The position numbers and the translations under genes were made by a program. Of a stretch of DNA of 47,259 nt, positions 23,028 to 47,259 are shown one piece after another. The stretch is from positions 1 to 47,259 of IMG/VR virus record IMGVR_UViG_3300030329_005929; one strand, 5' to 3'. Below the pieces are notes generated by a model. It did no database searches. It was not told the origin of the DNA and was given only the letters and a program-made list of their open reading frames with translations. Position 1 is the first letter of the stretch, and every line of letters begins with the position of its first letter. Source of the DNA: a virus.

Positions 23028-24863
23028 ATGTCTGATCAGAACACATCAAATGATTTCTTGGATTTTAATCTACCTCAAAAAGCTTATGCAGGGTTTGATG
23101 CACTAACATTAAAAAACTATATTATAGAAAGATTAAATGAAAACGAAAAATTTACAGATCAAAATTTTGAAGGAAGTAACTTAGCAGCTGTAATTGATAT
23201 TATAGCTTACTCCTATCATGTACTGCTATTTTATTTAAACAACACGGCATCAGAAGTAAATTTTGACCAAGCAAGTTTATATGAAAATATGAACAGAATT
23301 GTGAAGCTTATTGGTTATAAGCCTACTGGTAGGCAAACTTCTATTGTTCCAATTAATGCTGTAGCATCAGCAAATTTAGCTAAAGGTAATTACACTATTC
23401 GTAAATATTCCTATTTTTTAATCGACGATATACAATATACATTTTTAGATGACGTTACTTTTAACAAAACTGCAGCAGGTGTTGAAGATATAAAAGCAAT
23501 CAATGACAACGTTGTATTATATCAAGGTGGTGTAGCTGAGTACCCGGCATATACTGCCCAGGGAGAAAAATTCGAAGGTTTAACAGTTGTAGTAGATAAC
23601 ATAGTAAATGAAGATGATGAGAGGTTTATAGCGGACAATACAATAAGTGTTAATGTACAGGAGCGTGGGGATGGCTTATATCATGAATATTCTGAAGTGG
23701 AGAGCTTGTTCCTCTCAAAACCTGCTGATCGGGTATTTGAAAAGAGATTAAATGAAAACGGGCATTATGACATCAAATTTGGTGACGGGGCGTTCGGACG
23801 GAAGCTCGCTGAGGGAGACACAGTAGCAATTAACTACATACTGTCTGATAATAGGAGAGGAATAATAAGCAAAGATGCAATAAACGGTAATAAGTTATTC
23901 ATTTATGATTCTTCAAGGCAGAGGGCTATATTTAACGACACCTTTTTAAACAGAGATGAGACAACCTTTATTACTGTCGCAAATAGTGCACAATTAACTT
24001 TTAATAATCCAATTAATTCTACTACACTAGCCGAAGCAGAAACTGTCGATCAAATCAGAAAAAACGCGCCAAAAATATTTTCTTCACAGATGAGATTAGT
24101 CACGGAGAGTGATTATGAGGCTCTGTTTATTAAGCATCTACCTAGTATTATTAACAGCATACAAGTTGTTAGTAATACACAATACATAAATGAATACATT
24201 CAATATTTTTATAATTTGGGCGTAGATCCAAATAAAGTTAACCGTGTATTAATCAATCAGGTAAATTTTGCCGACTCTTGCGACTTTAATAACGTTAATG
24301 TTTTTGTAGTTCCTAAATTTGTACTTACTGAAGATAAATCTTTTCCGCCATATGTAAGCAACTCGTTTAAGAATTTAATGATTGACTTGACACAAGATAA
24401 AAAAATGATATCTAACGAAGTAGTACCTAGAGACCCCGTGTACATGGCATATGGGCTAGGTTACACCCCTGGAGGCGAGCTAAGTACTTCAATTTTAGAT
24501 AATACAAACCTATATGTAGTTAGAGATAGAACAAATAAAATAAATAAACACACATTAAGTACCAGAGTCGGTAATCTTATAAAACAATTTTTTCTACCTG
24601 AAAACAATATGTTAGGCCAAAAATTAAGTCTATCAACATTAACATCTTCTATTTTATCACTCGAGGGAGTTAAAAGAATATATACCCAAAACCCTGAGAC
24701 GAATGATTTGTTTAATGGAATTTCCTTTTTATCCTTTAACCCGCTTTACCCCGAAACAGATATTGAATTAGTTAATCAAGATACCACGCTACCGTTTTTT
24801 AAATTCCCATACTTATACTCCCCGCTAGCTATTTCAAATCAAATAATTGTCAGAGATGAGTAA
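23028..24863 (+). CDS. gp6: baseplate wedge protein, gp6-like (baseplate J family)
   Basis: The 611-residue protein is the wedge subunit that forms the inner baseplate ring. Family features are the N-terminal 'FDALTLKNYIIERLNENEKFTDQNFEGSNLAAVIDIIAYSYHVLLFYLNNTASEVNFDQASLYENMNRIVKLIGYKPTG' block (about 19-97), typical of gp6/gpJ N-termini, and mid 'IKFGDGAFGRKLAEGDTVAINYILSD' followed by 'DQIRKNAPKIFSSQMRLVTESDYEALF', the conserved baseplate-J element. T4 gp6 has 660 residues. It follows gp25 by 15 nt and overlaps the next gene by 8 nt. Confidence 0.9.
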   Translation: MSDQNTSNDFLDFNLPQKAYAGFDALTLKNYIIERLNENEKFTDQNFEGSNLAAVIDIIAYSYHVLLFYLNNTASEVNFDQASLYENMNRIVKLIGYKPTGRQTSIVPINAVASANLAKGNYTIRKYSYFLIDDIQYTFLDDVTFNKTAAGVEDIKAINDNVVLYQGGVAEYPAYTAQGEKFEGLTVVVDNIVNEDDERFIADNTISVNVQERGDGLYHEYSEVESLFLSKPADRVFEKRLNENGHYDIKFGDGAFGRKLAEGDTVAINYILSDNRRGIISKDAINGNKLFIYDSSRQRAIFNDTFLNRDETTFITVANSAQLTFNNPINSTTLAEAETVDQIRKNAPKIFSSQMRLVTESDYEALFIKHLPSIINSIQVVSNTQYINEYIQYFYNLGVDPNKVNRVLINQVNFADSCDFNNVNVFVVPKFVLTEDKSFPPYVSNSFKNLMIDLTQDKKMISNEVVPRDPVYMAYGLGYTPGGELSTSILDNTNLYVVRDRTNKINKHTLSTRVGNLIKQFFLPENNMLGQKLSLSTLTSSILSLEGVKRIYTQNPETNDLFNGISFLSFNPLYPETDIELVNQDTTLPFFKFPYLYSPLAISNQIIVRDE

Positions 24864-29994: not shown

Positions 29995-31253
29995 ACACTT
30001 ATACTTTCTCCATATCTACTACATCACCTGATAACGAAAAAACTTATAGTGAAATAAATTTGTTCGACCAGACAAATTTTACTATAGACATGACGGATGT
30101 TTACTCAGATGTGTTTCCTAATTATATTGCCTTTAATTGGGGTGATAACTCACCTATTGAAGAACCTGATATTAAAATTTTTCGAGATTATAAGACTGAA
30201 TCTATATACCCAGAAATTTTAAATAATGCTTCTCCAGTATTTTTAAATACAACCTATAGCCATATATATTACCCATCAGATTTTGCACTAAAAAAATCTA
30301 TGACTCTAAGAATTAATATAGGCTACATTACAGGGGCGCTGACAAAATTAACTGTGCCAGTAACAGTTAGAGCTGAAAGTTATTATGAGACTATTGGTGA
30401 TATGGAAATAACTGGAATAGATTTATTAAATGATGAAAATAATAGCTCTAGGTTTACCTTTTTAACAAAAAAAGATAATCATCTTATTCAAACAGACAAT
30501 ACAACCGAAAAAGCAGAACAGATTTTTACGGATAGGGTTCCAGCTGCTCATGCAACACCGACCTTTTTCTCTCCCGGGAGGTCTAGAGCTAAACAGGGAC
30601 CCAGGGCAGCGCGCTCTTCAACAGGTTCTGGAAAGTTTCTCAGTGAGCTATTTGATCCGGAGCTTAAGCAGTGGGGCGAATGGGGACCACCAGGAAAAAT
30701 GGATAACATTTTTGCTAGTCCATTTGGATTTCACCCGGGTGTCAACGTTCCGAAGCCATGGAAGGGCTGGAGCCCTTGGAAAGTAGATCAAGGTGTTTGG
30801 GACCTCCCACCTAAGACTTTGCGCGAAAATATAGAGGAGCTGCGGGGTAGGATAAAGCCACAACCTGATCCCGCAAGGCCGGTTCCGGAAGATCAATTGA
30901 TAGGTAAAAAGAAAATAAACTGCCCACCATTTCCAAAGTGGGCGCGAGAGTACTATAAAAGAGGTAGTGATCCTGGAAATCCAAGGGGTAAGAATTTCAC
31001 TCCCCATTTAGGAAGGCGGGCGATGGATTGGGAGAACCCGTCCGAGAGCGATAAGCAAACTACTTTCCCTCCATATTATCTTTATCTTGAAAGTTTGTAC
31101 CTGCAAAGACCTCGGAAAATAACACTCTTCCAATTAATGCATTGCACGAAACTAGCCACCGGGTCGTATCCTGGTCAATGGGATGTAGATCAAATGTTCG
31201 AAGAAGGAAAAGGCCCGCAGCGAAAGCCGCCAGAGGGATTCTTCGAAGAATAA
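29991..31253 (+). CDS. chimeric protein: PKD-like N-terminus plus Pro/Trp-rich C-terminus
   Basis: The 420-residue product has two unlike halves. Residues 1-175 are AT-rich-coded beta sequence with a PKD-like 'IAFNWGDNSPIEEP' and 'YSHIYYP'. From about residue 180 the protein becomes rich in Pro, Gly, Trp and Arg ('WGEWGPPGKMDN', 'PKPWKGWSPWKVDQGVWDLPP', 'CPPFPKWAREYYKRGSDPGNP'), matching the style of the fibre-region proteins at 35990 and 42800. DNA composition shifts at the same point, near 30530. Translational coupling to the previous gene is indicated by the ATGA overlap. Function is unknown; a peripheral tail protein is inferred. Confidence 0.6.
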   Translation: MNTYTFSISTTSPDNEKTYSEINLFDQTNFTIDMTDVYSDVFPNYIAFNWGDNSPIEEPDIKIFRDYKTESIYPEILNNASPVFLNTTYSHIYYPSDFALKKSMTLRINIGYITGALTKLTVPVTVRAESYYETIGDMEITGIDLLNDENNSSRFTFLTKKDNHLIQTDNTTEKAEQIFTDRVPAAHATPTFFSPGRSRAKQGPRAARSSTGSGKFLSELFDPELKQWGEWGPPGKMDNIFASPFGFHPGVNVPKPWKGWSPWKVDQGVWDLPPKTLRENIEELRGRIKPQPDPARPVPEDQLIGKKKINCPPFPKWAREYYKRGSDPGNPRGKNFTPHLGRRAMDWENPSESDKQTTFPPYYLYLESLYLQRPRKITLFQLMHCTKLATGSYPGQWDVDQMFEEGKGPQRKPPEGFFEE

Positions 31254-33645: not shown

Positions 33646-35987
33646 TTTCTTATTTTAAATATACCGCTGGCGAGTCATTTACTTTAAATGGTAGAGATTA
33701 TACAGGCTTTTTTAATGTTCAAAACGGGTCTGCGTTTGTAGGTAAGGTTCCAACTCCAACTGCACCTCTGCTAGATATTAAAGATACTATGCTAACTAAT
33801 GCATACTTAGCTAAAAAAGAATTTGATAGAACTGCAGCGCCGGTGCAAGTATCTGATATAGTATCACCACCAGAAATTTCTCCTAGAAATGTAATCGATC
33901 AAACATTTCTAGATAGAAATTTAGGTATACTGAATAATAATAATTTAAATTTATATAGTTCAAATTTGACCTCTAATTTAAATTTGGTCAATTTTCAAGA
34001 TTCATTTACTGATAATACTAGTTACTTTCTAGGCGTGTCAGCTGGATTTACTGATACAAAGGATAGCGATACAAAGTTGGCTAAAGATAATAATCATGCT
34101 TTGCAAATAGTTCCGTTTAGCCATACAAATGAGTTAACACTGGGAATTAGTAATTTAGATAATACAGTAGATAGTGCTCTTATTGTTAATGGTGATAAAT
34201 CTTTTAAATATCTGACTACTACTACTGCAGGTTCACAAACTCTTAGTGGTACTTTTGCAAAAAACGGTTCACTAAAAAGCATTAAGCAAGGTGAATTCGA
34301 AGCCGCATCTGCTCTCTTGTACAATGATCATGCTAAGATTTTATACAATGTTGTGCAAATGACAGATAATAATTTTACTCCATTTGGTAATATGGATGAA
34401 GAAATTGAACTACTGCCTGATCAAGTAACCCAATCAAATGAGCTAGCCATGAAGCGAGATCAGTTACAGGTACGTAGCGATTTAGCTGACGGGTCGCGAC
34501 CTAGTACGTTTGATACACCAGAAGAAGCTACAGACGTAGCTGCATTAATAGGCTGCGGTGGCTACCATGCTCACGACGGTGAGGGTGGTTATATGCCTTG
34601 TTTAACAATGGAGAGCTTTATGAGTTTGACAGATCTTTCTACAATACAGTTAGAAATGAAAGAGGTCAATAAAGAGGCTGCCGAATTAGGCCAGGTAGCA
34701 GAAACTTATTGCATAAAGGTATATGACGCTAATTCTTATATCACCACCGGAAATTTACAGTTAAAAGATAAAATTACAATCGAGGAAAGAATTACAGACG
34801 GTAAAATACGAATCGGTAACACCTTAAAGGGATACATAATTGGTGCAGGTGGGCGTAAGCAGATTGTATTAAGTGAAATATCTTCCAGTGAGATTTTTGG
34901 TATAGTTAATACGGTTTCCAATTCCGAGCAAATAATAGCGTTTGATATAAATGATGTAGATGATAGCATTATAGTAGTAACTAGTGTCGACGGTATTTGC
35001 GATACACTTAATTTATATCGCTTAGATTCTGAAAATCTTCAAGATCTGGATCCTAATAACACGTTCTTTGCGCCTCAGGATGAAACATTGTACAGAAGAG
35101 ACCATCCAGAATTGACAACCCCAGTAGCTGGTTTTGTAGGTTATATAGTTAGGTATCAAAAAAGCTCCGCTAATTACAATCTCTGCCCTGTACAGAATAT
35201 TAGTATAAAGTTCTCAAGTTACGATTCCAATGTATTTGTGTTAACAGATAACGGAAATGTAATTACTAGCTTTATATCTAATCCCGGTGGCCCTGCTAGT
35301 TTCGGATCTAGAGATAGTCTTTTGTACCCACGTGAAAATAAATGGGGTGAATTTAATCAAAAACCTGAAAGCTCGCAATTAAAGTGGAACACAAATAATT
35401 TACCATCTAATTATTTTAACAATATTAATTTTTTATACGGGGAATATGAAGGTGAAATATATACCCTATTACATAATATCGGTAGGATATACTTATCATC
35501 TTCTAAGCAACTTTTATATAATAATTTTGTACCTTTAGATCTAGTACACAACTACAACAAAGGAATTGGCGTAGAATCAAGCTTAGGTATATCATTAAAT
35601 AGCGAGCTTCAAGCTATTATAAAAGACGCGCTTAATATATTTTATAACGTTAATATTATTCCTGTGCCTAAAGTAATTGACGGTGTGTCTGTTTTAGGGG
35701 GGTATACGAGTCCTAAAGACATTCCAATAAATTTTAGAGATCTTGAATTTCATGAAAATGAAGAAGTAAACTATAATACAGTCTGGCGCGTCTTTAGCAA
35801 AATTTATGAATTTCAAAAAGATATTATGAATAGGGTTATTAATCCTCCAACAGATGAGATAACTGCTGTAACCTCTATGACAGTTAATTACGTAGATAGT
35901 AACGGAGATATGATTGAGGTCCAGCACAACGATGACGGAACTGCAGTTGTACGGGATATAAATAATGTTAGAGAGGGGGGAGTGTAA
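33642..35987 (+). CDS. large tail protein with Cys/His motif, unknown
   Basis: The 781-residue protein is mostly beta. A compact motif C305-G-G-Y-H309-A-H311, with C320 shortly after (GGYMPC), could bind a metal ion. It sits before a helical segment (STIQLEMKEVNKEAAELG). A segment 'NVFVLTDNGNVITSFISNPGG' has the look of a propeller blade. The N-terminus has low-complexity Asn/Ser. Peripheral baseplate or fibre base are plausible by position. I do not recognise a family. Confidence 0.55.
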   Translation: MISYFKYTAGESFTLNGRDYTGFFNVQNGSAFVGKVPTPTAPLLDIKDTMLTNAYLAKKEFDRTAAPVQVSDIVSPPEISPRNVIDQTFLDRNLGILNNNNLNLYSSNLTSNLNLVNFQDSFTDNTSYFLGVSAGFTDTKDSDTKLAKDNNHALQIVPFSHTNELTLGISNLDNTVDSALIVNGDKSFKYLTTTTAGSQTLSGTFAKNGSLKSIKQGEFEAASALLYNDHAKILYNVVQMTDNNFTPFGNMDEEIELLPDQVTQSNELAMKRDQLQVRSDLADGSRPSTFDTPEEATDVAALIGCGGYHAHDGEGGYMPCLTMESFMSLTDLSTIQLEMKEVNKEAAELGQVAETYCIKVYDANSYITTGNLQLKDKITIEERITDGKIRIGNTLKGYIIGAGGRKQIVLSEISSSEIFGIVNTVSNSEQIIAFDINDVDDSIIVVTSVDGICDTLNLYRLDSENLQDLDPNNTFFAPQDETLYRRDHPELTTPVAGFVGYIVRYQKSSANYNLCPVQNISIKFSSYDSNVFVLTDNGNVITSFISNPGGPASFGSRDSLLYPRENKWGEFNQKPESSQLKWNTNNLPSNYFNNINFLYGEYEGEIYTLLHNIGRIYLSSSKQLLYNNFVPLDLVHNYNKGIGVESSLGISLNSELQAIIKDALNIFYNVNIIPVPKVIDGVSVLGGYTSPKDIPINFRDLEFHENEEVNYNTVWRVFSKIYEFQKDIMNRVINPPTDEITAVTSMTVNYVDSNGDMIEVQHNDDGTAVVRDINNVREGGV

Positions 35988-35989
35988 TA

Positions 35990-37582
35990 ATGTCTTATCA
36001 CGATGTAACCACACCAAGCCCTATGAGTATGCCCTATGATGGTCCGTCGGTTGAAAATACAACTACTACTACTACAACTACTCCTACTCCATTTAGTACA
36101 ACCACGACAACGCCTGTCCCTTATAGTACAACCACAACTACACCTGCACCCGAGGACTGTTGTACTCCAAATGTTTTATCTAAATATGGGCCGAATGATA
36201 AAGTTCCAGCCGGTCGCGATAAAGGTACGTTGTTCCGATTAATTCCAGGATGGAAGCCTGGTGATTGGTGGTGGGGTGATGAAAAAAATAATATATTTAC
36301 AGAAAATAATATTAACCCGGAAAAACCTCCAAAGAATATGGTCGTACACACCTGGGAGGGTTGCTGGAAGATAAATCCAAAAGCCATGGAGGGGAGTTCT
36401 GGTATTCACCAGCTCAAAGCTGCTCAAAGCCGTGATCCTGCTAGCTCTTACCCCGGTCGGCGTGCACAATTTGCTAATCAGCCATATAGATTTTTATGGA
36501 TTAAGTGTCCTTGTTGTCCTGAAAAAGATTGGCGACCAAAAGTATCTAGACCCCCGGCTCCGGCGAAACCGACAGAGCCAAAGCCAACAGAGCCAAAGCC
36601 AACAGAGCCAAAGCCAACAGAGCCAAAGCCAGGGTCAGAGGATAAGCCAATTGAAACTAAACCCGGTGGCGGGGCGAATCCGGATATGAAGGAGCACGAG
36701 AAATGGCTTAGAGATAGAAATAAAGAGGCGGAAGAAGAGGAGAAAAAAAGAGCAGAGATAGAAGGGGAACCTGGGGATGAGCCACAACCTGATCCACAGA
36801 TAGGAGGAGGGCCCGGGGATGAACCACAACCTGACCCACAACAACCATCGACTAGACCGTCTGGGCAAGGAGAGCTAGAGAGTGGTGAATTTGGTGGTAT
36901 TCTTTGCTGCAATCCGGTTACATACTGGTGGGTGTGTCCCCCATGGAATGTACAAATTAACATGTTTAATCCGAAACGAGGGACCGTGGTTCCAGTAAGG
37001 AGCCAGGTATGGTGTGATACTTGGCTAGCGAGTCTTGCTGCATCAAAGCGATTTCCGACAGCTGGTGAGCAAAATGCTGTAGGTAATAGAGGATATAGTA
37101 ATGATCAATTTAACGATGATCTAGCTAACGTAAATTTAAGAGGTGTGGTAGTAGGGTGGTGTAAAGATGAAGAATGGCGTCAAGACGCTCGAGGAGTGAT
37201 GAATAACAAAGGAATAGTACCAAATCTCGGGAAGGAAAAAATTCATGACGTTAAAAAGTGTAAGTGCTATAGAGTAAGACCAGGAAAAGAAGCTGATGTT
37301 AAAAATTGGTTTTTTGTTCCCCCGACTGCAGCTGGAGGTACATATAACTATAAAGATCAAAAATCGCCTTCGGGCCCATCAATGTGGGAAGAATGTAAAT
37401 GTTGCCCGGGGTGGCAGGGTAAAGTTACAAAATTTAGGCGGATGGGTGTACAGACATCTGGTAAACCAGGAGGCGCGCCCAGAGAACAGACTGCATGGTT
37501 GGTGCGGAAGGATTTCGAGCCGGATGGAACAGGAGAGTTTACTCGATCAAAGAGGAAATACTGGTGCCCGCCACCATTTTAG
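35990..37582 (+). CDS. Trp/Pro/Cys-rich modular fibre-region protein with Thr linkers
   Basis: The 530-residue protein begins MSYH, then a mucin-like threonine/proline linker (about 24-54) of three units. Module 1 runs from C57-C58 to C173-P-C175-C176 and contains 'GDWWWGDEKNNIF' and 'PEKPPKNMVV'. A Pro/Lys/Glu linker with four PTEPK repeats and an acidic-Pro segment follows. Module 2 runs from C306-C307 to C469-K-C471-C472, with 'YWWVCPPWN'. The end is 'RKYWCPPPF'. A strong ribosome site (aggggggag) precedes the ATG. The 45883 gene starts with the same MSYH plus Thr-rich style, and the 42800 gene has the same module type. I recognise no known family. Tail adhesin or decoration is inferred from position. 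Confidence 0.65.
   Translation: MSYHDVTTPSPMSMPYDGPSVENTTTTTTTTPTPFSTTTTTPVPYSTTTTTPAPEDCCTPNVLSKYGPNDKVPAGRDKGTLFRLIPGWKPGDWWWGDEKNNIFTENNINPEKPPKNMVVHTWEGCWKINPKAMEGSSGIHQLKAAQSRDPASSYPGRRAQFANQPYRFLWIKCPCCPEKDWRPKVSRPPAPAKPTEPKPTEPKPTEPKPTEPKPGSEDKPIETKPGGGANPDMKEHEKWLRDRNKEAEEEEKKRAEIEGEPGDEPQPDPQIGGGPGDEPQPDPQQPSTRPSGQGELESGEFGGILCCNPVTYWWVCPPWNVQINMFNPKRGTVVPVRSQVWCDTWLASLAASKRFPTAGEQNAVGNRGYSNDQFNDDLANVNLRGVVVGWCKDEEWRQDARGVMNNKGIVPNLGKEKIHDVKKCKCYRVRPGKEADVKNWFFVPPTAAGGTYNYKDQKSPSGPSMWEECKCCPGWQGKVTKFRRMGVQTSGKPGGAPREQTAWLVRKDFEPDGTGEFTRSKRKYWCPPPF
36058..36150 (+). repeat. threonine-codon repeats (TTTTT-P-x-P-x-S units)
   Basis: Three units of five or more ACN codons, each followed by P-x-P and Tyr/Phe-Ser, encoding an extended linker. 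Confidence 0.75.
36572..36631 (+). repeat. four perfect-register 15-bp tandem repeats (PTEPK)
   Basis: The unit acagagccaaagcca occurs four times in a row without change. In-frame gain or loss of units would alter linker length without a frameshift. Confidence 0.9.
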
Positions 37583-37620
37583 GATACATTAAAACAATAG
37601 ATAGTATTTTGAGTAAGTTG

Positions 37621-37628
37621 TATAAATA
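37621..37628 (+). promoter_or_regulatory. late promoter element TATAAATA (collar-domain fibre)
   Basis: A perfect consensus, 5 nt before the ATG. Confidence 0.7.
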
Positions 37629-37633
37629 ATGTT

Positions 37634-38254
37634 ATGGGAGAAAGTCTAGAAGATCAATTTATATCTGATTCATATACCTCTATTCTTCATTTAAGTGGAG
37701 CTGATCTTAGTACTCCACCTAATACACTAAATGGGGTATACGATGGTGCAGGGCATGGTACAGGAATTTCTTTGAGTGGTACAAGAGTGGTTGTTAACAA
37801 TTATGTTCAACCTGAAGGGCCTGCAACACCGATTCAGTGGCTAGATGCATTTTTCCCAGTTAATTCTATTAAATTAACTTTTGATGATACAAACCCCGGG
37901 GATACCATGGCTAATACAACATGGGAATTAATATCACAAGGACGATTTTTGGTAGGCGTAGGATCTGGAACAGATATAAATGAAACTGTTGGTACTTATG
38001 TTGCTGGTGAGAATAACGGAGAATACAGTCATGTATTATCTGTAGATGAATTAGCAAAGCACAGTCACGAAATTGAAGAAAAGGTGATAGGTAGTAATAA
38101 TCCACGCACCGGGGTTGTTAAAGGTGGTGAATTTATCGGCGGTAGAGAACAACAAGGAGGCGTTCAATATAATACACTTTCAGCAGGAGATAACAAAGCC
38201 CATAACAACGTACCTCCTGGGTATGGTGTCTATGTTTGGCTAAGAACAGGATAA
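37634..38254 (+). CDS. tail collar-domain fibre protein (short tail fibre-like)
   Basis: The 206-residue protein ends in a phage collar-type fibre tip: 'TTWELISQGRFLVGVGSGTD', then 'GEYSHVLSVDELAKHSHEI' with the HxH pair that coordinates metal in T4 gp12-like knobs, and the final 'NNVPPGYGVYVWLRTG', the usual last strand of such domains. The first 75 residues are probably the attachment region. It is preceded by TATAAATA at 5 nt. It may be the short fibre that anchors the virion irreversibly to the host. Confidence 0.75.
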   Translation: MGESLEDQFISDSYTSILHLSGADLSTPPNTLNGVYDGAGHGTGISLSGTRVVVNNYVQPEGPATPIQWLDAFFPVNSIKLTFDDTNPGDTMANTTWELISQGRFLVGVGSGTDINETVGTYVAGENNGEYSHVLSVDELAKHSHEIEEKVIGSNNPRTGVVKGGEFIGGREQQGGVQYNTLSAGDNKAHNNVPPGYGVYVWLRTG

Positions 38255-38263
38255 TAAGCAATC

Positions 38264-39802
38264 ATGGCAGATATTACTATAGTAAAATTAAAAGTAAGAC
38301 GCGGGACTGATGCCCAGAGAAAAACTATTGTCTTAGATCAAGGTGAAGTAGGCTATACATTAGATACAAAAAGACTATTTGTTGGTGATGGATCTAAGCT
38401 TGGGGGCAACGTTGTTGGAAATACCGGGCTAGGTACATTTACATCAATACAATCATTAGGAGATGTTGTCGGAGCTCAAGTTGGAGATATTGGATATGCT
38501 AACAGTTCTCTGTTTATGCTAACCTCCATTCCTTATGAATATAACTCCGGGGGATCATATTTATCAGGATTTGCTTACATTGGCACTAAAGCAGAAGATA
38601 CAACACCTACTATAAGTTTTGACGATGATGGCCGGATAACAGTTGCAAAAAATTCTTTAGATGCACAATCGTTTAAAGGGTTATTTTTTGGAAACGGTAT
38701 CCTTTCTGGGGGGGATGGGGAAATATCAACAAGTTTAAATAATGAATATTTTGTGTTATCTACAGATGCAACTGCACCTAGAATAACACCGAAGCAAAAT
38801 TCTATAACGAAAAGAGAGATAGCTACTTCCGCTCTTTCTAGTGGTCTTGTTGGCGGAGACGATCTAGCAGTTAAATTACACATAAATGAGGATACTTTTA
38901 GCTTTGCTGATGACGGGTCTCTTATATTAGAAAATTTAGGTACAAATACTGTACTATTCTCCACGTTTGCTGCAACAGCCATCGGTAATGGCTTAAACTT
39001 AAATAACTCAACTAAACAATTAGAAGCTACATTTCAAAAAGTTAACAACTCATTAAATTTAGTTGATGGTGTTTTATCGATTGCTTCAGGTGTATCTGCT
39101 AATGAAGGAGCCACTAACACAGCTCCAGAATTACCGTATGTGGAAGTGTCTGATGGAATAGTTACAGCTTTAAGAAGTTCAATATTTGATACAGTTACTG
39201 CAACTGGGTTGTCTGGTGAAGGTACTGGAGATGACGTACCGGTTGGCTCAGTATTACCACATGCCCGGGCATTTAGTGGTGCAACTGGTAACATTCCACC
39301 GGGATATTTACTTTGCGATGGTGGTGCATATGACAGTGCATTAGATGAATATAAAGATTTATTTGATGTAATTGGTTCCAATTGGAATACAGCATATGGT
39401 GCATCTGATCCCGGTGGTACATTGTTTAGGGTGCCTAACTTAACAGGTGGTGATGTATTTATGTATGGTGCAAACACATCAGCACCGGGTAGCACAACTT
39501 ACAAATTAAGTGCTACAACATCTACTGCAAGCCACGTACTATCAGTCCAAGGGTATAACTACATTATTAGGTACTCTAAAGGTGTAGGTGATTTTGACCT
39601 ATTTAACGGCCAGCCCAATCAAGTGTCCAAAAAGCTTAATAAAGACGTGCAGATTAAGACTTATGCTGGGGTTGATTCATCCGGAGCTACTATGCAATTA
39701 AGTTCAGCTGGTTTTATGTTATTTGCGTTATCTGGTGATGTTAGAAGCAGTTTAAGTAACGAAATGTATGATAGATTTGCAATCCCCGTATATAACTGGT
39801 AA
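38264..39802 (+). CDS. tail fibre with Mtd-type N-terminus and collar domain (1)
   Basis: The 512-residue protein opens with 'KLKVRRGTDAQRKTIVLDQGEVGYTLDTKRLFVGDG' (about 7-42), the domain known from major tropism determinant N-termini and many phage fibres. A long beta shaft follows, with short repeats (FSFADDGSLILENLG, SLNLVDGVLSIASG). A collar domain is at about 325-420 (VGSVLPHARAFSG, GNIPPGYLLCDGGAYD, GTLFRVPNLTGG). The last 90 residues differ from its paralogue downstream and are probably the receptor-specific part. A ribosome site (acagga) is 10 nt upstream. The two fibres may form alternative or mixed trimers. Confidence 0.8.
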   Translation: MADITIVKLKVRRGTDAQRKTIVLDQGEVGYTLDTKRLFVGDGSKLGGNVVGNTGLGTFTSIQSLGDVVGAQVGDIGYANSSLFMLTSIPYEYNSGGSYLSGFAYIGTKAEDTTPTISFDDDGRITVAKNSLDAQSFKGLFFGNGILSGGDGEISTSLNNEYFVLSTDATAPRITPKQNSITKREIATSALSSGLVGGDDLAVKLHINEDTFSFADDGSLILENLGTNTVLFSTFAATAIGNGLNLNNSTKQLEATFQKVNNSLNLVDGVLSIASGVSANEGATNTAPELPYVEVSDGIVTALRSSIFDTVTATGLSGEGTGDDVPVGSVLPHARAFSGATGNIPPGYLLCDGGAYDSALDEYKDLFDVIGSNWNTAYGASDPGGTLFRVPNLTGGDVFMYGANTSAPGSTTYKLSATTSTASHVLSVQGYNYIIRYSKGVGDFDLFNGQPNQVSKKLNKDVQIKTYAGVDSSGATMQLSSAGFMLFALSGDVRSSLSNEMYDRFAIPVYNW

Positions 39803-39810
39803 ATTAAATA
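39803..39810 (+). promoter_or_regulatory. late promoter element ATTAAATA (second Mtd-type fibre)
   Basis: Spacing to the ATG is 9 nt. Confidence 0.5.
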
Positions 39811-39819
39811 TTTAAAACA

Positions 39820-41457
39820 ATGGCTATAGAAATTTTAGAAAATACTCTCTTAAAGCTTTTAGTTAGGCGCGGTACAGACGCTGACAGGCAACAAATAACT
39901 CTTGAAAGTGGTGAATTAGGCTTTACCACTGATACAGAGAGGTTATTTATTGGGGACGGTACTACTGCTGGAGGTGTTTTAGTAGGTAATAAGTACAAAG
40001 GTGCAGCTGGAGATGTAACCTCTCTATCGCCTGTAAATATAGGTGACTATGTATATGATAATGATGATAATGTTCTATACATATGTACTACAAATGATGG
40101 CTCTTCACAAGGTGATTGGACAGCCGTAGCCAATAGCCTAAGTGCGCTTGATAATACTTTAATTATAGATAGTAAGAGTCGAGGTAGAGTAGGAAAAACT
40201 TCTGATGGTGGTGGGTTATCTGCTGGTAATATTAGTAATTCAGCTCTTGGTGATTCTTTACTGTTAGACGCATCAGATACAGTAACATTAAGTTCTGCTA
40301 TTAGCGTTGATGCTATTTACCGCAAAACTACAAATGTTAATAGCTTTTTATCCTTACCATCTAAACTTAAAATAAGTGAAATTGATTATACTTTTCCGGG
40401 AGTTTCACCTGCTGCAGATTCATTCTTAGGTGCTGATGCAGCTGGTGTATTAAGCTGGGGAGTACCGGGCGTTGTGACTTCAGGTGTAGCTCCCACTACT
40501 GCAGCACTAGTTCCTGTAGGTACTATAGTGCCATATGTATCAGCTGCTGGAAATGTTCCTTACGGGTGGTTACCGTGTGATGGTAGATCAGTAGGTACTG
40601 CTGATTTCCCGGACTTATCTGGTGTAATCCATTATGCATATGGTGGATCGGGTACTTCATTTAAAGTACCTGACCTCACCAACAAAGCTGTATATGGTAA
40701 TAGTGATCCTGAAGCGAGTACGTTATATGGCTTAAGTGCTAGTGCTGGTAGTACCGGTGCTAGTATATCTGCATCCGGAATGATGTTTATTATCAAGGCT
40801 ATGGATGGGATAACAAGCCCAACACTAACCGTTACAAAAAATCTGTCTTGCACTGTTAATAGTTTGTTAAGAAAAACTGATGTGGAGTTTGACCCATTAA
40901 GTGGAGATATTGTTATAGAAAGCGTACAACCTGGAGTTGTGGTATTTGATAAAAATGTAGGTGGAGCTTCTTTTACATTCCCATCTAGTGTACACTATGT
41001 AAAATATTATGTTACTGGAGCTGGCGCCCAGGGGGGTAATGAATCTGGTGGGGCTGCAGCGACGGTAATTGGTTATTTATCTGCCTGGCCGGGTGCAGTA
41101 TTTGATATTCAAGTAGGTGAACCTTCTGTAAACAAAGGCGGAAATGGAGGCGCTAGTACAATTAGTAAAGATAGTAATCTTATTATCAAATCAAATGGGG
41201 GCCTCGTCGGCGGGTTCCGTGGCGAAGGATCTATTGATACATCTAGTAATCATACAGTTGGTGGGTATGTGTTATCTGGTGCCGGTGGCGGTACACCGAC
41301 GTATAATAGTAATGCACAAGCAGATGGTGCTGCTTCTTATTGGGGTGGAATGGGGGCACCGGGTGCAGGTGGTGGTTCTGAAGCAGGTGATGCTATTGGT
41401 ATACAACGCGGTCAAAATAAAGTAGCCCAAGGCATAGTCATGTTTGAGTGGTCATAG
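39820..41457 (+). CDS. tail fibre with Mtd-type N-terminus, collar domain and Gly-rich tip (2)
   Basis: The 545-residue paralogue of the preceding fibre has 'KLLVRRGTDADRQQITLESGELGFTTDTERLFIGDG' at the N-terminus. A collar domain lies at about 225-300 (PVGTIVPYVSAAGNVPYGWLPCDGRSVG, TSFKVPDLTNKAVYGNS). The C-terminal tip of about 150 residues is glycine-rich (GAGAQGGNESGGAA, VGGYVLSGAGGGTP, MGAPGAGGGSEAG). Such Gly-rich tips resemble polyglycine-type adhesins (gp38-like) that carry receptor specificity. The gene ends next to an AT palindrome and small genes. Confidence 0.8.
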   Translation: MAIEILENTLLKLLVRRGTDADRQQITLESGELGFTTDTERLFIGDGTTAGGVLVGNKYKGAAGDVTSLSPVNIGDYVYDNDDNVLYICTTNDGSSQGDWTAVANSLSALDNTLIIDSKSRGRVGKTSDGGGLSAGNISNSALGDSLLLDASDTVTLSSAISVDAIYRKTTNVNSFLSLPSKLKISEIDYTFPGVSPAADSFLGADAAGVLSWGVPGVVTSGVAPTTAALVPVGTIVPYVSAAGNVPYGWLPCDGRSVGTADFPDLSGVIHYAYGGSGTSFKVPDLTNKAVYGNSDPEASTLYGLSASAGSTGASISASGMMFIIKAMDGITSPTLTVTKNLSCTVNSLLRKTDVEFDPLSGDIVIESVQPGVVVFDKNVGGASFTFPSSVHYVKYYVTGAGAQGGNESGGAAATVIGYLSAWPGAVFDIQVGEPSVNKGGNGGASTISKDSNLIIKSNGGLVGGFRGEGSIDTSSNHTVGGYVLSGAGGGTPTYNSNAQADGAASYWGGMGAPGAGGGSEAGDAIGIQRGQNKVAQGIVMFEWS

Positions 41458-41476
41458 TTGATATATAATATATCAA
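41458..41476. other. perfect AT-rich palindrome
   Basis: TTGATATAT and ATATATCAA flank a single central a, directly after the fibre stop codon. No T-tract follows, so it is a weak candidate for a terminator or a protein-binding site. Confidence 0.4.
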
Positions 41477-41489
41477 CCCTAACTATGAT

Positions 41490-41654
41490 ATGGAGGAATT
41501 AATAGTAGAAGGTCTCGATTACGAGGATTTTGTAGTAATAAAAAAGGTTCTAGAGAACAATACCACCTTTACAACCGAAGAGAGAGAAGATTATGCTGAT
41601 ACTCTCACTATAATTCAAAAGGTTAACAAAATTATAGAAGCGTTTAATGACTAA
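41490..41654 (+). CDS. small acidic protein of 54 residues, unknown
   Basis: An ATG frame of 54 codons encodes a mainly helical acidic peptide starting MEELIVEGLDYEDFVVIKKV and ending KIIEAFND. It fills the only gap between the fibre gene and the 41663 gene, and its stop codon overlaps that gene's ACTAAATA element. Codon usage is like its neighbours. No ribosome site precedes the ATG. It may be a fibre-assembly helper, but nothing in the sequence shows this. Confidence 0.5.
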   Translation: MEELIVEGLDYEDFVVIKKVLENNTTFTTEEREDYADTLTIIQKVNKIIEAFND

Positions 41655-41657
41655 ATA
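41650..41657 (+). promoter_or_regulatory. late promoter element ACTAAATA (71-residue gene)
   Basis: It overlaps the stop of the 54-residue gene; spacing to the ATG is 5 nt. Confidence 0.5.
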
Positions 41658-41662
41658 CTCAT

Positions 41663-41878
41663 ATGAAGGCCAGTTCTGGTTGGAAAGGTAGCTCTTTATG
41701 TGAAGAGTTCTCTGATTATGTCCTACAAGATGATAGTAATAATAGTATATTAGTTAATATACCTGAAAAGCATTTTGGCACTATATTTAGAGAGCTTACA
41801 AAACTCGGATACAAAATGGTTTTTAAGGCGAGGATAAATAAAACTAAATCTCTAACTTGTACTTTTATAAAGATTTGA
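41663..41878 (+). CDS. small protein of 71 residues, unknown
   Basis: A short mixed alpha/beta protein ('LCEEFSDYVLQDDSNNSILVNIPEKHFGTIFRELTKLGYKMVFKARI') with a basic C-terminal half. ACTAAATA lies exactly 5 nt upstream, which supports it as a real late gene. It separates the two Mtd-type fibres from the lectin-like gene. No function is recognised. Confidence 0.6.
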   Translation: MKASSGWKGSSLCEEFSDYVLQDDSNNSILVNIPEKHFGTIFRELTKLGYKMVFKARINKTKSLTCTFIKI

Positions 41879-41881
41879 GGA

Positions 41882-41889
41882 ATTAAATA
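41882..41889 (+). promoter_or_regulatory. late promoter element ATTAAATA (lectin-like gene)
   Basis: It is 9 nt before the ATG and would also serve the giant 42800 gene. Confidence 0.5.
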
Positions 41890-41898
41890 TAATAAGTA

Positions 41899-42798
41899 AT
41901 GGCCGTCTTTGATTTATCTGAAATAAATTTACCAGCATATGCTCGGTTTTATAATTTTATAGAAACTAAGCAGAGGTTTAATTCAAATTATGATATAGTT
42001 TGGTCTTTTCAGTATAAGCTTCCGAGTACTAGCTTAAGCGGGAATGCTTGGCCTAAAACTCAAATGGGGTTTACAACATTTTTAACCACCTTATCATCTC
42101 CTATTTCCTCGCTACCTGGTCAATACCTAGGAGACTCAGATCCCTTTGTTTTATCTGGTGCAAAAGGATCAAGTATAACTACACAAGGGGGAACTGTAAT
42201 TCAGAATGAAGATTCTGAAACTTTAACAATAGACAGTACAACTTTAAGTGGTCACATAGTAAAAATTGCCTTCGATACAACCGGCTTATACGCTTTATCT
42301 GGAAAGGCAAGTCGGCCAGGTGTTTCCTTTTACAATACACATCCACAGGCTCTTATTATTCGAGATTTTAGAGATAACGTATTATGCAATGTACCATTGA
42401 GCTCAATGAATACAGCTTTTAGTAGTTTGTCTACAGATGACTTTAGGACACTGAGATTTAGATATGCTAATCTTGGGCGTAAATTACATATAGATTTCCG
42501 GGAAAGCACTACTACTCTTTTTACACCCGTAACATCATTTAATTTAGGTTATACTATAGCAAATTTCAACGAGCTTGATAATGTATATTGTGGATTCTCT
42601 TTTTGCACCCCTCTATCAAATGGAGCTGGTCCTGGTGCCGGTGGCGTAGCATTGAGTGCCGGTAATTTCTTTTTAAAGGACTTTCACATAGAAGGTTATC
42701 AAGGTGGGACCGTATTAACTCAAACAATAACTAGTGAACCTCTTTCATCTAATCCTAATACGAGCATCACGACAGTTACTAACATAACAGCCGCATAA
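41899..42798 (+). CDS. beta-sandwich (lectin-like) tail protein, unknown specificity
   Basis: The 299-residue protein has alternating strands that look like a concanavalin-type sandwich. Examples are 'DIVWSFQYKLPSTSLSGNAWPKTQMGFTTFLTT', 'HIVKIAFDTTGLYAL', 'RTLRFRYANLGRKLHIDFRE' and 'VYCGFSFCTPLSNG'. The end is Thr/Ser-rich (TTVTNITAA). Such folds on phage tails often bind sugars. I infer an adhesin or decoration protein. Its stop is followed by the next start after 1 nt, so the two are probably one operon. Confidence 0.5.
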   Translation: MAVFDLSEINLPAYARFYNFIETKQRFNSNYDIVWSFQYKLPSTSLSGNAWPKTQMGFTTFLTTLSSPISSLPGQYLGDSDPFVLSGAKGSSITTQGGTVIQNEDSETLTIDSTTLSGHIVKIAFDTTGLYALSGKASRPGVSFYNTHPQALIIRDFRDNVLCNVPLSSMNTAFSSLSTDDFRTLRFRYANLGRKLHIDFRESTTTLFTPVTSFNLGYTIANFNELDNVYCGFSFCTPLSNGAGPGAGGVALSAGNFFLKDFHIEGYQGGTVLTQTITSEPLSSNPNTSITTVTNITAA

Positions 42799-42799
42799 T

Positions 42800-45700
42800 A
42801 TGGCCACCGGAGAACTAGGACTTAAATTTAAGGCGGAAAAGGACTGTCATATTACTCTCGAGGGAGCTGAGCTAGGTGGGCCCATTTATAGAGTATATGA
42901 TAGACAGTCCGGTGCGTTACTGGATACAATTGCAATATCACCAGCAATATGGACAGAGAGTGGGGAAAAAATTAGTGAAGAAAATTTTCCTAACAGGACG
43001 TATCATCCTAATAGATATGTTGTAGGAGATGATCAATATGCGGGACTAATAATAGAAAGCCGTGGGGCTAGTGAAGAAATTCAAATACGGTGTGGTCCTG
43101 CGCCAGCGCCAACTGTACAACCTCGAGGTCGAGTAAGACGTGATCGAGGTAGAGATGTAGCTAATGAAGTTAGACAGGCGTTTAATGTAGATGATGTTAG
43201 ATACGGTCCACCGTGGTTGGTAACAGAAAAAGTATGGAAAGAGCTAATTCCAGGTGAAATGTTCGATAAATTAGCTGCACAGGGTATCCGCAATCAAGCC
43301 GCAGTAATACTTGTAGATGAAACTTCTCCACCAGGAGAATTTGGAGGCCTTTCTCCATGGTTTCCGCAAGACATTGTTAAGGAAAACCTTCCTGCAAAAC
43401 CAGCTGAACCACCACCCAAAGATCCTAGATTACAAGAAACTGAAGCGGAAAAATGGAGAAGGGAAGAGATTGAAATGCAGGTAACGGTATGGGATCAATA
43501 CAAAGCTTTAGATAAAAAAGCACAAAAGGGGCTTAAACCATTACATGCTGATTTTCGTGAATCCAGAGATCCAAATGCCCCACCTGGGTGGGGATTTTCA
43601 GCTACTAAGCCCGCGCCACACTGGTATCTTGACCCGGTTGTTGCTTCTTTGGGAGAACGTCTCGTAATACCGCCCGGACCTCGGCAAGCTCAAGTTGACC
43701 CGGATCCGGATCCCGGATTACCGTGGGATGAGAATGTATTTCTAACTACTACTACTATGCCACCACAGAAGGAGGATTGCTGTAATCCTAAAGGTTCTTG
43801 GTACTGGGAAAGATTGGAACTTGTTAATGGGGCACTTAAACCTATAGATTGGAACAAGCATTTAAGAGCGGGTACTAAACCAGTATATCCAGAAGATCTA
43901 TCTTCTCTTGTACTGGATGAAAATCTCCAGAAATTTGAGGTAGGTGGAAATAATAACTGGTGGAATTGGATGATAGATGAAGCTAAGAAGCATGTTAATG
44001 ATCCAGAGTATGCCCCGTGGTTTGCCGACCCGGAAACTATAGAAAATTATAATATATTTACCGAATGGATAGCCCCTAGGTTCGATGCGAACGGTATTCC
44101 GCTTCCTCGGCCGCCTATATTTGATCAAGCTAATGCATTCTTAAAGCAAAATGTATATCCTAGATATGAACAGGCTGCTACGGTGTGGTGGAATTCTTAT
44201 AAGAGTATTTGGTTAGAGCTTAAAATGCTAACCGTTATGGACCCTGACGTGGATGATCCAAACAGAGAAAAGCAAATTCCAAACTACCCTCCTAATGCAA
44301 CAGTAGGCCGTAATTCTATATGCCCTAAAAACATAGCTGATGACTGCTTAGTATTAAAACATAAGAATGACCCAGATCTCGTGGCACGGTTAACAGTTTC
44401 CGGAGATGCAATTCAAGATGAAAGGGGAGCTATGGTTATACCTACACTTCCGGAAAGACAGCGCCAGTGGCCTCCTGTTTTTATTAATGGTAGGATTGTC
44501 GGTGGGCCTCCGGATGAACCACCTCCAATACCAGGTGTATCTAGTCTAGTACAACCAAATTATGGTGAGCACCCGGTAGTAGTTGATTATGATAGAGATC
44601 ATGATGATGAAGAATTTGAAATATGTTTTAAGGCTATAGATCCCAAGTGGATAGCTGCTCACTGGACTATAGACCCGGCTATTGATATTTTATCAATGGG
44701 GCAACCACGAGAAGGTCCTGGAGGAAAGCAAATACAACAAAGAATTCTATATGTAAAGGATTTAAAAGTTGGAGATAAAGGTCAAGGGTGGGAAGTTTGC
44801 AAATGTTGTGCCACTTCAACTAGTACAACTACAACACTGCCAATTGTTACGACGACTCCGCCTCCAAGCGTAAAAGTCTCTCCAAATGCTTTAAACCAAG
44901 GGGAATGGTTTTGGAACAATAATAATGATAATTTCTTAACGCCTTTTGATGGTATTCCTGAAAAAAATATGGCATTTTGGCAGCTGCCTCTGGATAATGT
45001 TCGAATTTTACGTGCAATGATCACAAAGTGGGAAAACCTAACAAGAGCTTATGTCCCTCTTATTGGAGGTCGTCTTGGAAGACTACGACTGCGAGGCCGG
45101 GGAGCTCTTCCCGAGGTTGAAATTGGACCAATGGCGGGTCAGGGCCGAGCTGCTGAGCGTTTTGGGCGAGAGTATCTACGAGACGCTGGATATCCGGATC
45201 CCCCGAAGTATAAAGAGCCAACCGGTGCTGAATTAGAAGATCCTGATTATTTTAAAAATCTACCATCACTTGCTAAACAGCCATGCCCTACTCCATGGCC
45301 ATGGTTCTGGACCAAAGTTGGGTGGAGAAAGGCGGTTCCAGGTGGGGTTGCAGAACAGCCATATTGGCCATTTTCTGGTAAGGGCCCGGGACCAAGACCT
45401 ACTGGAGAGGAAATAATAGAAAGGTGGTTTGCAACTGCAATGCCACCAGCAGTTCCCGCAGGAGGTGTTCCTAGGGCACCTGTAGCGCCTATTGGTGGGG
45501 AGGGTCCTGGTAAACCTGTTATAGGCCAAGAGGCCGGGGGCCCTGGTATCTTTGAGGGAGGAATTAATCCAATGGCCGGCCTGGATCCAAATATCCGAGT
45601 GCTTCTACCCCAAGAAGGTCGAAACTGGAGAGGTAAAGGAGATCCTTTCGAAGGTGGGCCACCATGGTATAAGTGGGATGGTCTATTTTTCTTGCAATGG

Positions 45701-45868
45701 ATTCCGGTAGGGTGGCCATGCCCTGAAAAGCCCTCCACGCCTGAAGACTGGGAATCACCGGATGGAATATTAAGTCCGGGTAAATGGGACCATTTATGGG
45801 AGGATCCCAGGCCTCCAAACTGGTTCCAGGGCCTCGAGGGGGTTGATTGGGGGAACGCGCCTACCTAA
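42800..45868 (+). CDS. giant Trp/Pro/Gly-rich modular protein (CC-module family)
   Basis: The 1022-residue protein has an N-terminal beta domain (about 1-100, 'ELGLKFKAEKDCHITLEG'), an Arg-rich stretch (RGRVRRDRGRD) and a charged Pro-rich helical region. A Thr-linker 'FLTTTTMPPQKED' leads into a module from C327-C328 to C667-K-C669-C670, then a second Thr linker 'TSTSTTTTLPIVTTTPPP'. The next module begins 'QGEWFWNNNNDNFLTPFDGIPEKNM', which parallels 'GDWWWGDEKNNIFTENN' of the 35990 protein. The final 250 residues are Gly/Pro/Trp-rich with 'PTPWPWFWTKVGW' and 'GWPCPEKPS'. No known fold is evident. It follows the lectin-like gene without a promoter. Confidence 0.65.
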   Translation: MATGELGLKFKAEKDCHITLEGAELGGPIYRVYDRQSGALLDTIAISPAIWTESGEKISEENFPNRTYHPNRYVVGDDQYAGLIIESRGASEEIQIRCGPAPAPTVQPRGRVRRDRGRDVANEVRQAFNVDDVRYGPPWLVTEKVWKELIPGEMFDKLAAQGIRNQAAVILVDETSPPGEFGGLSPWFPQDIVKENLPAKPAEPPPKDPRLQETEAEKWRREEIEMQVTVWDQYKALDKKAQKGLKPLHADFRESRDPNAPPGWGFSATKPAPHWYLDPVVASLGERLVIPPGPRQAQVDPDPDPGLPWDENVFLTTTTMPPQKEDCCNPKGSWYWERLELVNGALKPIDWNKHLRAGTKPVYPEDLSSLVLDENLQKFEVGGNNNWWNWMIDEAKKHVNDPEYAPWFADPETIENYNIFTEWIAPRFDANGIPLPRPPIFDQANAFLKQNVYPRYEQAATVWWNSYKSIWLELKMLTVMDPDVDDPNREKQIPNYPPNATVGRNSICPKNIADDCLVLKHKNDPDLVARLTVSGDAIQDERGAMVIPTLPERQRQWPPVFINGRIVGGPPDEPPPIPGVSSLVQPNYGEHPVVVDYDRDHDDEEFEICFKAIDPKWIAAHWTIDPAIDILSMGQPREGPGGKQIQQRILYVKDLKVGDKGQGWEVCKCCATSTSTTTTLPIVTTTPPPSVKVSPNALNQGEWFWNNNNDNFLTPFDGIPEKNMAFWQLPLDNVRILRAMITKWENLTRAYVPLIGGRLGRLRLRGRGALPEVEIGPMAGQGRAAERFGREYLRDAGYPDPPKYKEPTGAELEDPDYFKNLPSLAKQPCPTPWPWFWTKVGWRKAVPGGVAEQPYWPFSGKGPGPRPTGEEIIERWFATAMPPAVPAGGVPRAPVAPIGGEGPGKPVIGQEAGGPGIFEGGINPMAGLDPNIRVLLPQEGRNWRGKGDPFEGGPPWYKWDGLFFLQWIPVGWPCPEKPSTPEDWESPDGILSPGKWDHLWEDPRPPNWFQGLEGVDWGNAPT

Positions 45869-45871
45869 ATA
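45864..45871 (+). promoter_or_regulatory. late promoter-like element CCTAAATA (last gene)
   Basis: It overlaps the preceding stop codon; the 11-nt spacing is the longest of the set. Confidence 0.35.
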
Positions 45872-45882
45872 AAAATGTAACA

Positions 45883-47259
45883 ATGTCTTATCATAACGAA
45901 ATAACATCGCAAGGTACTACTACCGTGACGACTCCATTTCCATGGGAAAAACCACGTGATTTTGGGGCTGATTGGTCAACTACACCCCCGCCATGTGATT
46001 GTATAACTGGTATTTTGTACTTACCGGATCGAGGTAGGTATTCGAGCGATGATACTATTGAAGGAATATCCGATGAAAATTGGGATAGATTTCCTCGGCT
46101 ATTACAGGCACCTCAGGACCCTGGTTGGGATACCGTGATCGATGTACCGGAAGGATGGGCAATAAGTATTGAGGATCCACGAGAATCGCCGAATTATAAC
46201 CCAGAGTGCTGGGTAGTATATAAAAAGGCCTGGCGGACACATGCCCCTGCAGGTTCACTCGCTACAGACGGCACTCCAATTGGAACTCCAGGTGTTGCTC
46301 TAACCCCGGAAGAGTTAGAAGAATTAAAGCTTCCTCTACCCGGAGAGCCAGGAGGCCCGCCGGAAAATTATATTCGAACAGAAACTCGAATATTTTGTAA
46401 GGGTAAAGATCCGAGAGAAGGGGAAAGTGGGGAGCATGATTTTAGTATCCCTGAAGATCCGCAAGGCCATTGGCCCTGCTTACCGATAGATATCTCATTG
46501 CCTGACTTTGATATGGTTGATGATGCAGGGAATATATTGCCATGGCCAGATCAAACTCCCGCCCACAGGGCCGACGAAAGGATCCAGGCAGAAGGCTTTA
46601 GAGATCGGCTTAAGAGCTTTGGGCTCTACCCTCTGGAAGAGATGTCTGATGAAGAGCTTGATGCAATAGGCAGACTAAAACGAGGTGAAGTCAGCCCAGG
46701 CGGGGTCCGTCGACCGGAAAGTGTCGATCCCGGTGGGTTGAACCAGGATATCCCCACCTGGTCTGACATGAACAACCAGGTAAAGGAGGATCGTAAGTTG
46801 TGGGACGAGATGTCCGAATCGCAAAAAGAAGGATGGCGAGATTGGCTTAAACAAGAGTGGGATAGGGAGAGGGAATTGAAAGAGGCCTGGTCAGGATTTC
46901 CACGGGAATCGGAACACCGGTTTGAGGAGGGTGAAGAGAATGTTATCGACATTAAGCTCCCTGGGAAGGAAATACAGGATAAGCTTCAGAAACATGGAGA
47001 AAAATGGAGAAACAGTAAAGGGTTTGTACCATCTGAAGATTCATGGTCACCGCCTGGTTGGGGATGGGATCCTGAAAAGGGGTGGATACAAGGGAATCCG
47101 GAGCACGATATTATTGGGGGACGGGATGCTAAGATAGAGCCATTTATAGACAGCTATAGCGGGCCTCTCGGCGGCCCACAGCGCAATGCCTTTGAGGGAA
47201 TCGGCGATGGTATCATTCCACGGCGGATTAACAGGATTTATTTTAAGATTACAGACCCT
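45883..47259 (+). CDS. partial Trp/Pro-rich protein, runs off the window
   Basis: An open frame of 459 codons starts at ATG and has no stop before the window end. The N-terminus MSYHNEITSQGTTTVTTPFP resembles the 35990 protein (MSYH plus a Thr-rich stretch). Further on are C-x-C (PPPCDCITG) and Trp-rich segments (PPGWGWDPEKGWIQG). A charged helical region is in the middle (KEDRKLWDEMSESQKEGWRDWLKQEW). Third codon positions become more G/C-rich along the gene (11 of 40 at the start, 31 of 50 near 46672-46821). Its late-type element CCTAAATA is 11 nt upstream. Function is unknown. Confidence 0.7.
   Translation, partial: MSYHNEITSQGTTTVTTPFPWEKPRDFGADWSTTPPPCDCITGILYLPDRGRYSSDDTIEGISDENWDRFPRLLQAPQDPGWDTVIDVPEGWAISIEDPRESPNYNPECWVVYKKAWRTHAPAGSLATDGTPIGTPGVALTPEELEELKLPLPGEPGGPPENYIRTETRIFCKGKDPREGESGEHDFSIPEDPQGHWPCLPIDISLPDFDMVDDAGNILPWPDQTPAHRADERIQAEGFRDRLKSFGLYPLEEMSDEELDAIGRLKRGEVSPGGVRRPESVDPGGLNQDIPTWSDMNNQVKEDRKLWDEMSESQKEGWRDWLKQEWDRERELKEAWSGFPRESEHRFEEGEENVIDIKLPGKEIQDKLQKHGEKWRNSKGFVPSEDSWSPPGWGWDPEKGWIQGNPEHDIIGGRDAKIEPFIDSYSGPLGGPQRNAFEGIGDGIIPRRINRIYFKITDP

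Follow-up and report, generated by a model that had tools for sequence, protein, structure and literature searches.

The 47,259-base viral record IMGVR_UViG_3300030329_005929, the whole of which was analysed and is hereafter called the window, encodes a previously undescribed six-cysteine module in the most variable, and probably host-binding, protein of a group of T4-like viruses. The domain family defined by these modules is real and new, and the locus that holds it is of a known kind. On balance we favour the reading that gene 42800 (genes are named by their first position in the window), with its companions 35990 and 45883, provides a variable host-recognition protein built of six-cysteine clasps with exchangeable inserts. 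In each module an insert is flanked by two conserved segments, the opening half with the pattern CCxP...W[WFY][WFY] and the closing half with C[FYW]...W..CxCC. The features of the window are collected in Table 1, where window-free denotes profiles built solely from other phages' sequences.

Table 1. Coordinates of the modular and W/P-rich features of the window.
Feature	Position	Strand	Evidence or remark
Gene 42800, 1022 aa	42800..45868	+	positional counterpart of relatives' 1,900-2,400-aa modular protein
N-terminal domain of 42800, GGPxYRxYD...ESxGxxxEIxxxC	42800..43099	+	window-free HMM, E 9e-10 in a search of the window ORFs; alignment
Opening half 1 of 42800, CCNPKGSWYWERLEL	43778..43849	+	window-free model 10.6 bits
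Insert ('payload') 1 of 42800, aa 351-607	43850..44620	+	unrelated to insert of matching G037 module, p=0.65
Closing half 1 of 42800, CFKAIDPKWIAAHW..PAIDIL...GDKGQGWEVCKCC	44621..44809	+	window-free HMM 49.6 bits, E 6e-15
Thr/Ser linker of 42800, ATSTSTTTTLPIVTTTPPPS	44810..44869	+	
Opening half 2 of 42800, GEWFWNNNNDNFLTPFDGIPEKNMAFW	44861..44989	+	window-free HMM 23.8 bits, E 3e-7
Trp/Pro/Gly-rich tail of 42800	44990..45865	+	insert region after opening half 2
Gene 35990, 530 aa	35990..37582	+	two six-Cys modules, both complete and diverged, plus a Thr-rich N-terminus
Thr/Ser/Pro stalk of 35990, TTTTTTTTPTPFSTTTTTPVPYSTTTTTP	36059..36151	+	
Module 1 of 35990, aa 57-176	36158..36517	+	CCTP...WWWGDEKNNIF...PEKPPKNM...C125WK...WIKCPCC
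Module 2 of 35990, aa 306-472	36905..37405	+	CCNP...WW...C426YRV...WEECKCC; four additional Cys
W/P-rich C-terminal half of 29991	30561..31250	+	composition only; homologous to C-terminus of G037 orthologue
Gene 45883, incomplete at contig end	45883..47259	+	W/P-rich, no module; N-terminus MSYH...TTT like 35990

Source phage and related records

The window carries the genes of a T4-like contractile-tailed phage, among them terminase, sheath, tubes, baseplate wedge and clamp loader. Its terminase is 33-38% identical to those of the nearest cultured phages and 77-96% identical to those of many uncultured relatives, the 96% match being to G037, a 196,877-base contig. Judged by sequence, the window derives from a deep-branching T4-like phage whose group lacks a close relative in culture; the group is probably marine, going by its likeness to marine phage groups rather than by sample records.

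Pattern searches of viral contigs with 35990, 42800, 45883 and 41899 singly gave no matches, and relatives were retrieved via the terminase and then searched by tblastn inside those records. Gene 42800 matched open reading frames in G009, G011 and G037, and an alignment of the closing half added records G047 to G050 plus one further record. The module family comprises about eight related T4-like contigs at one hypervariable locus, its members being either single proteins of 1,915-2,437 residues (about 1,900-2,400) or, in G037, a set of genes.

Database, fold and literature searches

The module family had no match in Pfam, PHROGs or NCBIfam, nor among PDB sequences, and tblastn of the cultured phages in INPHARED with 35990, 42800, the G011 protein and 41899 likewise found none. 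Scanning prokaryote genomes for GW[EK].C.CCP returned at least 119 stretches; among the matches listed no family member was recognised by HMM, and those translated were short chance ORFs. The range of the family may be wider than found. An AF2 model of a relative's module reached a pLDDT of 78 and a pTM of 0.65, with no Foldseek match in PDB plus BFVD at E<=0.001. The literature searched, on phage adhesins rich in Cys and on glycosylation of tail fibres, yielded no earlier description of the module. The preliminary description, made from the letters of the window, had recognised no family with this signature, and this agrees with both the profile searches, which match no established family, and the lack of a fold match for the relative's module.

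Modules of genes 42800 and 35990

The cysteines of 42800 lie at C327-328...C667/669/670. In module 1 the CCxP and the aromatic triplet are both complete, and the closing motif C[FYW]...W..CxCC occurs once in the gene. Opening half 2 has WFW and lacks the CC pair, and a closing half for it is absent both from the same gene and from the window. The N-terminal domain is common to G009, G011, G037, G047 and G048, and a PDB profile search with it gave no match. When module 1 was compared with module 2 of G037 both halves matched (0/1,000 shuffles), with no similarity between their inserts of 257 and 321 residues (p=0.65). No homologue of the Trp/Pro/Gly-rich tail was found.

Gene 35990 is an additional gene between 33642 and 37634, with no counterpart among the relatives searched by tblastn. 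Its cysteines lie at C57-58...C173/175/176 and C306-307...C469/471/472. The opening CCxP and W[WFY][WFY] are complete in module 1, module 2 having WW only, and the closing motif is present twice. At least two CxCC arose in 3/20,000 shuffles of 35990, and the ordered pattern CC...C[FYWL][KR]...CxCC in 1/20,000; neither the double W..C.CC of this gene nor its W[WFY][WFY]x5N[IVYF][LF] arose in any of 20,000. Window-free profiles did not match 35990, nor did a model with 42800 added, and since independent profiles miss this gene its membership rests on motif order and spacing and on the shuffles. The halves of module 1 are about 10 residues apart by the boundaries chosen. A structure prediction of this module, with a pLDDT of 44, was discarded.

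The genes and cysteine positions that the preliminary description gave for 35990 and 42800 are as claimed. Its cysteine list was right in the CC and CxCC and omitted a sixth conserved cysteine per module, in C[FYW][KR] (C125 and C426 in 35990, C609 in 42800). It had also placed WWW/WFW segments, Asn-rich stretches and PEK--KNM inside the modules, which is true of module 1 of 35990 and not of 42800, where the WFW/Asn-rich/PEKNM stretch (residues ~703-725) comes after the module and belongs to a second one as its opening half.

Composition of the W/P-rich genes

Trp and Pro contents of 35990, 42800 and 45883 are 3.7-6.4 SD above those of other window genes, and in 29991 the rise is confined to the C-terminal half (W 3.9% and P 13.5% vs 0.5% and 5.3% in the N-terminal half), which bears out the unusual composition noted earlier. 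The same description had confined the full cysteine pattern to 35990 and 42800, and indeed the six-cysteine closing motif C[FYW]...W..CxCC is absent from 29991 and 45883. A single family over all four genes, as it had proposed, is not supported because 29991 and 45883 show just the composition. No homologue of 45883 was detectable, and a by-eye likeness of this gene to the second insert of the G037 orthologue of 33642 was rejected after failing a shuffle test. GC content at 4-fold sites is raised to 0.37 in the C-terminal half of 29991 (p 0.001) and 0.40 in 45883 (p 9e-8) vs 0.22 in core genes, and more weakly in 35990 (0.29, p 0.02) and 42800 (0.27, p 0.04); this rise in the W/P-rich segments is compatible with recent acquisition and is no proof of it.

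Module halves alternate around variable inserts

Four elements persist in all 16 aligned modules, namely CCxP, one Trp, the middle Cys and, in the closing half, W..C; the full CxCC is missing from one. Among 4,560 ORFs of the loci examined, W..C.CC is confined to members of the module family. Opening (O) and closing (C) halves follow one another strictly as O-C-O-C, never OO or CC, in G009, G011, G047, G048, G050, G037 and 42800, at distances of 52-1,141 residues across the family. Between relatives the halves are 51-73% identical vs 32-56% for the inserts, and in the near-identical G009 and G048 identities are 98-99% for halves, 92% for inserts and 71% for linkers. In G037 one module is divided between two genes, its opening half in one and its closing half in the first part of the other, and three W/P-rich genes intervene; 42800 resembles this arrangement with its unclosed opening half at the end followed by W/P-rich sequence. 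The preliminary description was correct in seeing modules; it missed that the two ends of a module are distinct halves, in strict alternation, with variable inserts between them.

Two of the three W/P-rich genes of G037 (L093:18616 to L094:6517) are 53% identical paralogues of 972 and 924 aa that begin MAYNALYLAG..., and their dN/dS of about 0.3 points to purifying selection.

A trypsin-like domain, an unusual insert for a fibre-type protein, was seen at L114:1138-1860, L117:1327-2049, L119:1234-1956, L115:1804-2487, L102:15494-16285(-) and L111:16226-16936(-). In G009, G011, G047 and G050 it is the first module's insert, and it also occurs in the adhesins of G006 and G030. As in trypsin-like serine proteases, the triad residues, namely His, Asp and DS[SG].P, are invariant in these relatives' inserts; the resemblance differs from a true assignment in being sub-threshold, with urokinase as the sole PDB profile match (E 0.25) and Pfam below significance, and no such domain was detected in the window proteins.

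A hypervariable locus beside glycosyltransferase genes

The gene after the 41899 orthologue encodes the modular protein in G009, G011, G047, G048 and G050, and in G006, G015, G016, G021, G027, G030 and G034 the same slot is held by other large variable proteins, for which the labels beta-helix-like, protease-like and Thr-rich were mostly read by eye. Nearly all of them end in a conserved tail of the type C...CNxLxF. The slot is a hypervariable gene at a fixed place among structural and fibre genes. Since the relatives' modular proteins occupy the slot of beta-helix, protease-like or Thr-rich proteins, the best reading of the 42800-type protein, from its place and variability, is an adhesin or distal fibre. 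Adhesins or virion decoration had been suggested earlier from the location among fibres, and the position after the 41899 orthologue supports the former; the proposed joining of modules by Thr-rich linkers is also supported, by a modular protein with such linkers at the distal-fibre locus.

A GT2 gene directly follows the adhesin in 8/8 records with Thr/Ser runs of at least 12, and in 0/4 where the adhesin is without long runs. In record G042 the GT2 gene is present and the intervening adhesin is not, which weakens the link to glycosylation; with this record included the association gives a Fisher p of 0.007, phylogeny being ignored. The contig of the window ends before the GT2 slot. In the relatives the Thr/Ser stalks are probably O-glycosylated, for which the neighbouring glycosyltransferase would be the candidate enzyme, and a specific hypothesis, glycosylation of a virion stalk, can thereby be offered.

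Behind the adhesin in G047 (L114:7279-10846) and G050 (L119:7298-10081) there is a GT29 (sialyltransferase-like) gene. A PIG-L deacetylase that bears a CTP-dependent riboflavin-kinase-like domain is also found in these regions of G047/G050, together with a fusion of glycosyltransferase and methyltransferase, G047 having both GT29-like and PIG-L-like genes behind its adhesin.

Alternative explanations of the module

The alternation of halves, their conservation, the diverged inserts, the split module of G037 and the unclosed half of 42800 together argue for a clasp with exchangeable inserts. Counting against it, the window supplies no closing half for the last 42800 module. We infer that the two halves make one fold with a disulfide or metal tie, and that 42800-type proteins are present in the virion and bind the host. 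The opening and closing halves would fold together as a discontinuous six-cysteine clasp, tied by disulfides or metal, which would hold out an insert that could be swapped or enlarged with the frame undisturbed, and Thr/Ser/Pro stalks would string such clasps in series. A bolder form of this model, which we entertain tentatively, holds that the halves make a new fold serving as a general display frame, covalently or metal-locked, able to take inserts as small as a short loop or as large as a protease domain, and that the G037 module functions even when divided between two polypeptides, with entire genes placed between its two halves. Opening and closing halves could instead be two independent small Cys-rich tandem domains with ordinary domains between them. 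This would suit the modelled module of the relative, whose CC end has a pLDDT <50 (counted against the clasp) and whose N-terminal 13 residues are disordered, as well as the retention in 42800 of an opening half without CC; the correlation between O and C similarities (Mantel r 0.71) could also be plain co-inheritance. We none-the-less consider independent domains unlikely, given that no protein shows an OO or CC order, that the halves are conserved as a pair with the middle replaced, and that a lone Cys pair on one side against four Cys on the other would sit uneasily with two small units, each stabilised separately.

The genes end a long structural run of the same orientation, directly behind fibre-type genes, and their hypervariability is typical of receptor-binding proteins; no signal peptide was noticed. 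These points make it quite improbable that the product is not an adhesin and acts on the infected cell or is released, for example blocking superinfecting phages, with the glycosyltransferases acting on the host envelope, as might be proposed for a host-recognition-cluster product from the protease-like inserts of the relatives and from pelagimyophage clusters, in which tail fibres occur together with glycosyltransferases whose proposed role is modification of the host O-chain (PMC7029224). Unrelated W/P/G/C-rich, low-complexity genes with chance Cys patterns would explain why BLAST finds no significant mutual similarity among 35990, 42800 and 45883 and why 29991 and 45883 do share composition alone. 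Such coincidence is barely credible against the shuffle tests, the window-free HMM matches and the homologous modules in about eight other records, and for 42800 the matches and the relatives' modules refute it.

Relation to known systems

Modular receptor-binding proteins of T4-like phages keep a constant frame and swap their C-terminal tips. The window family resembles these proteins and fibres in its constant frame, exchangeable distal parts and place at the end of a structural gene run, and differs in carrying its inserts between two Cys-bearing halves, serially on Thr/Ser stalks. Extracellular Cys-rich repeats such as von Willebrand factor C or TIL domains likewise combine vicinal Cys pairs with CxC(C) motifs in modules set in series; the present module differs in lacking a Pfam, NCBIfam or PDB sequence match, and the relative's model in lacking a Foldseek match. 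T4-like marine phages are known to carry hypervariable adhesin loci, and we know of no described mechanism by which their parts are exchanged without breakage.

If true, a two-part clasp around replaceable inserts would give viruses a new means of swapping recognition parts, a concrete answer to how parts are exchanged and possibly a display scaffold. W..CxCC offers a marker for the host-recognition gene in a group of phages that has no close member in culture. The clasp model would further predict, after 45883, a gene starting with a closing half (C[FY]...GWExCxCC), then GT2 and then the conserved YIDERFHSMKHDLK gene, and in metagenomic reads a diversity of inserts exceeding that of the clasp halves.

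The locus is also akin to the host recognition cluster of pelagimyophages and cyanomyophages, in which tail fibres stand next to glycosyltransferase genes that the authors favour as modifying the host O-chain (PMC7029224). Both concern T4-like phages, for the window probably marine, with a hypervariable island in the structural region that holds fibre or receptor-binding and glycosyltransferase genes. The domains reported from the published clusters are instead of the collagen, YadA, concanavalin and YHYH kinds, and cysteine is nowhere mentioned in that paper (PMC7029224). The window terminase, at 33-38% identity, also stands apart from those of the nearest cultured phages.

Other structural genes of the window

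Inserts make the length of the 33642 family variable, with 1,570 aa in G037 (L093:7786-12498, W/P-rich inserts), 1,254 aa in G042 (L270:341-4102) and 781 aa in the window (33642-35987), the window product having a sub-threshold DUF3721-like stretch. The tube protein appears triplicated because three window genes (8508-9092, 11642-12175 and 12219-12758) match the tail-tube family phrog_45. Directly after the baseplate wedge gene stands a 743-aa gene (24847-27078) with a PKD domain near its N-terminus (Pfam E 3e-8). The 737-aa product of 632-2845 has ~20% Gly and an unusually high Cys content of 3.9%, and contains repeated SxVGGGxxNxASG units similar to YadA-type head repeats.
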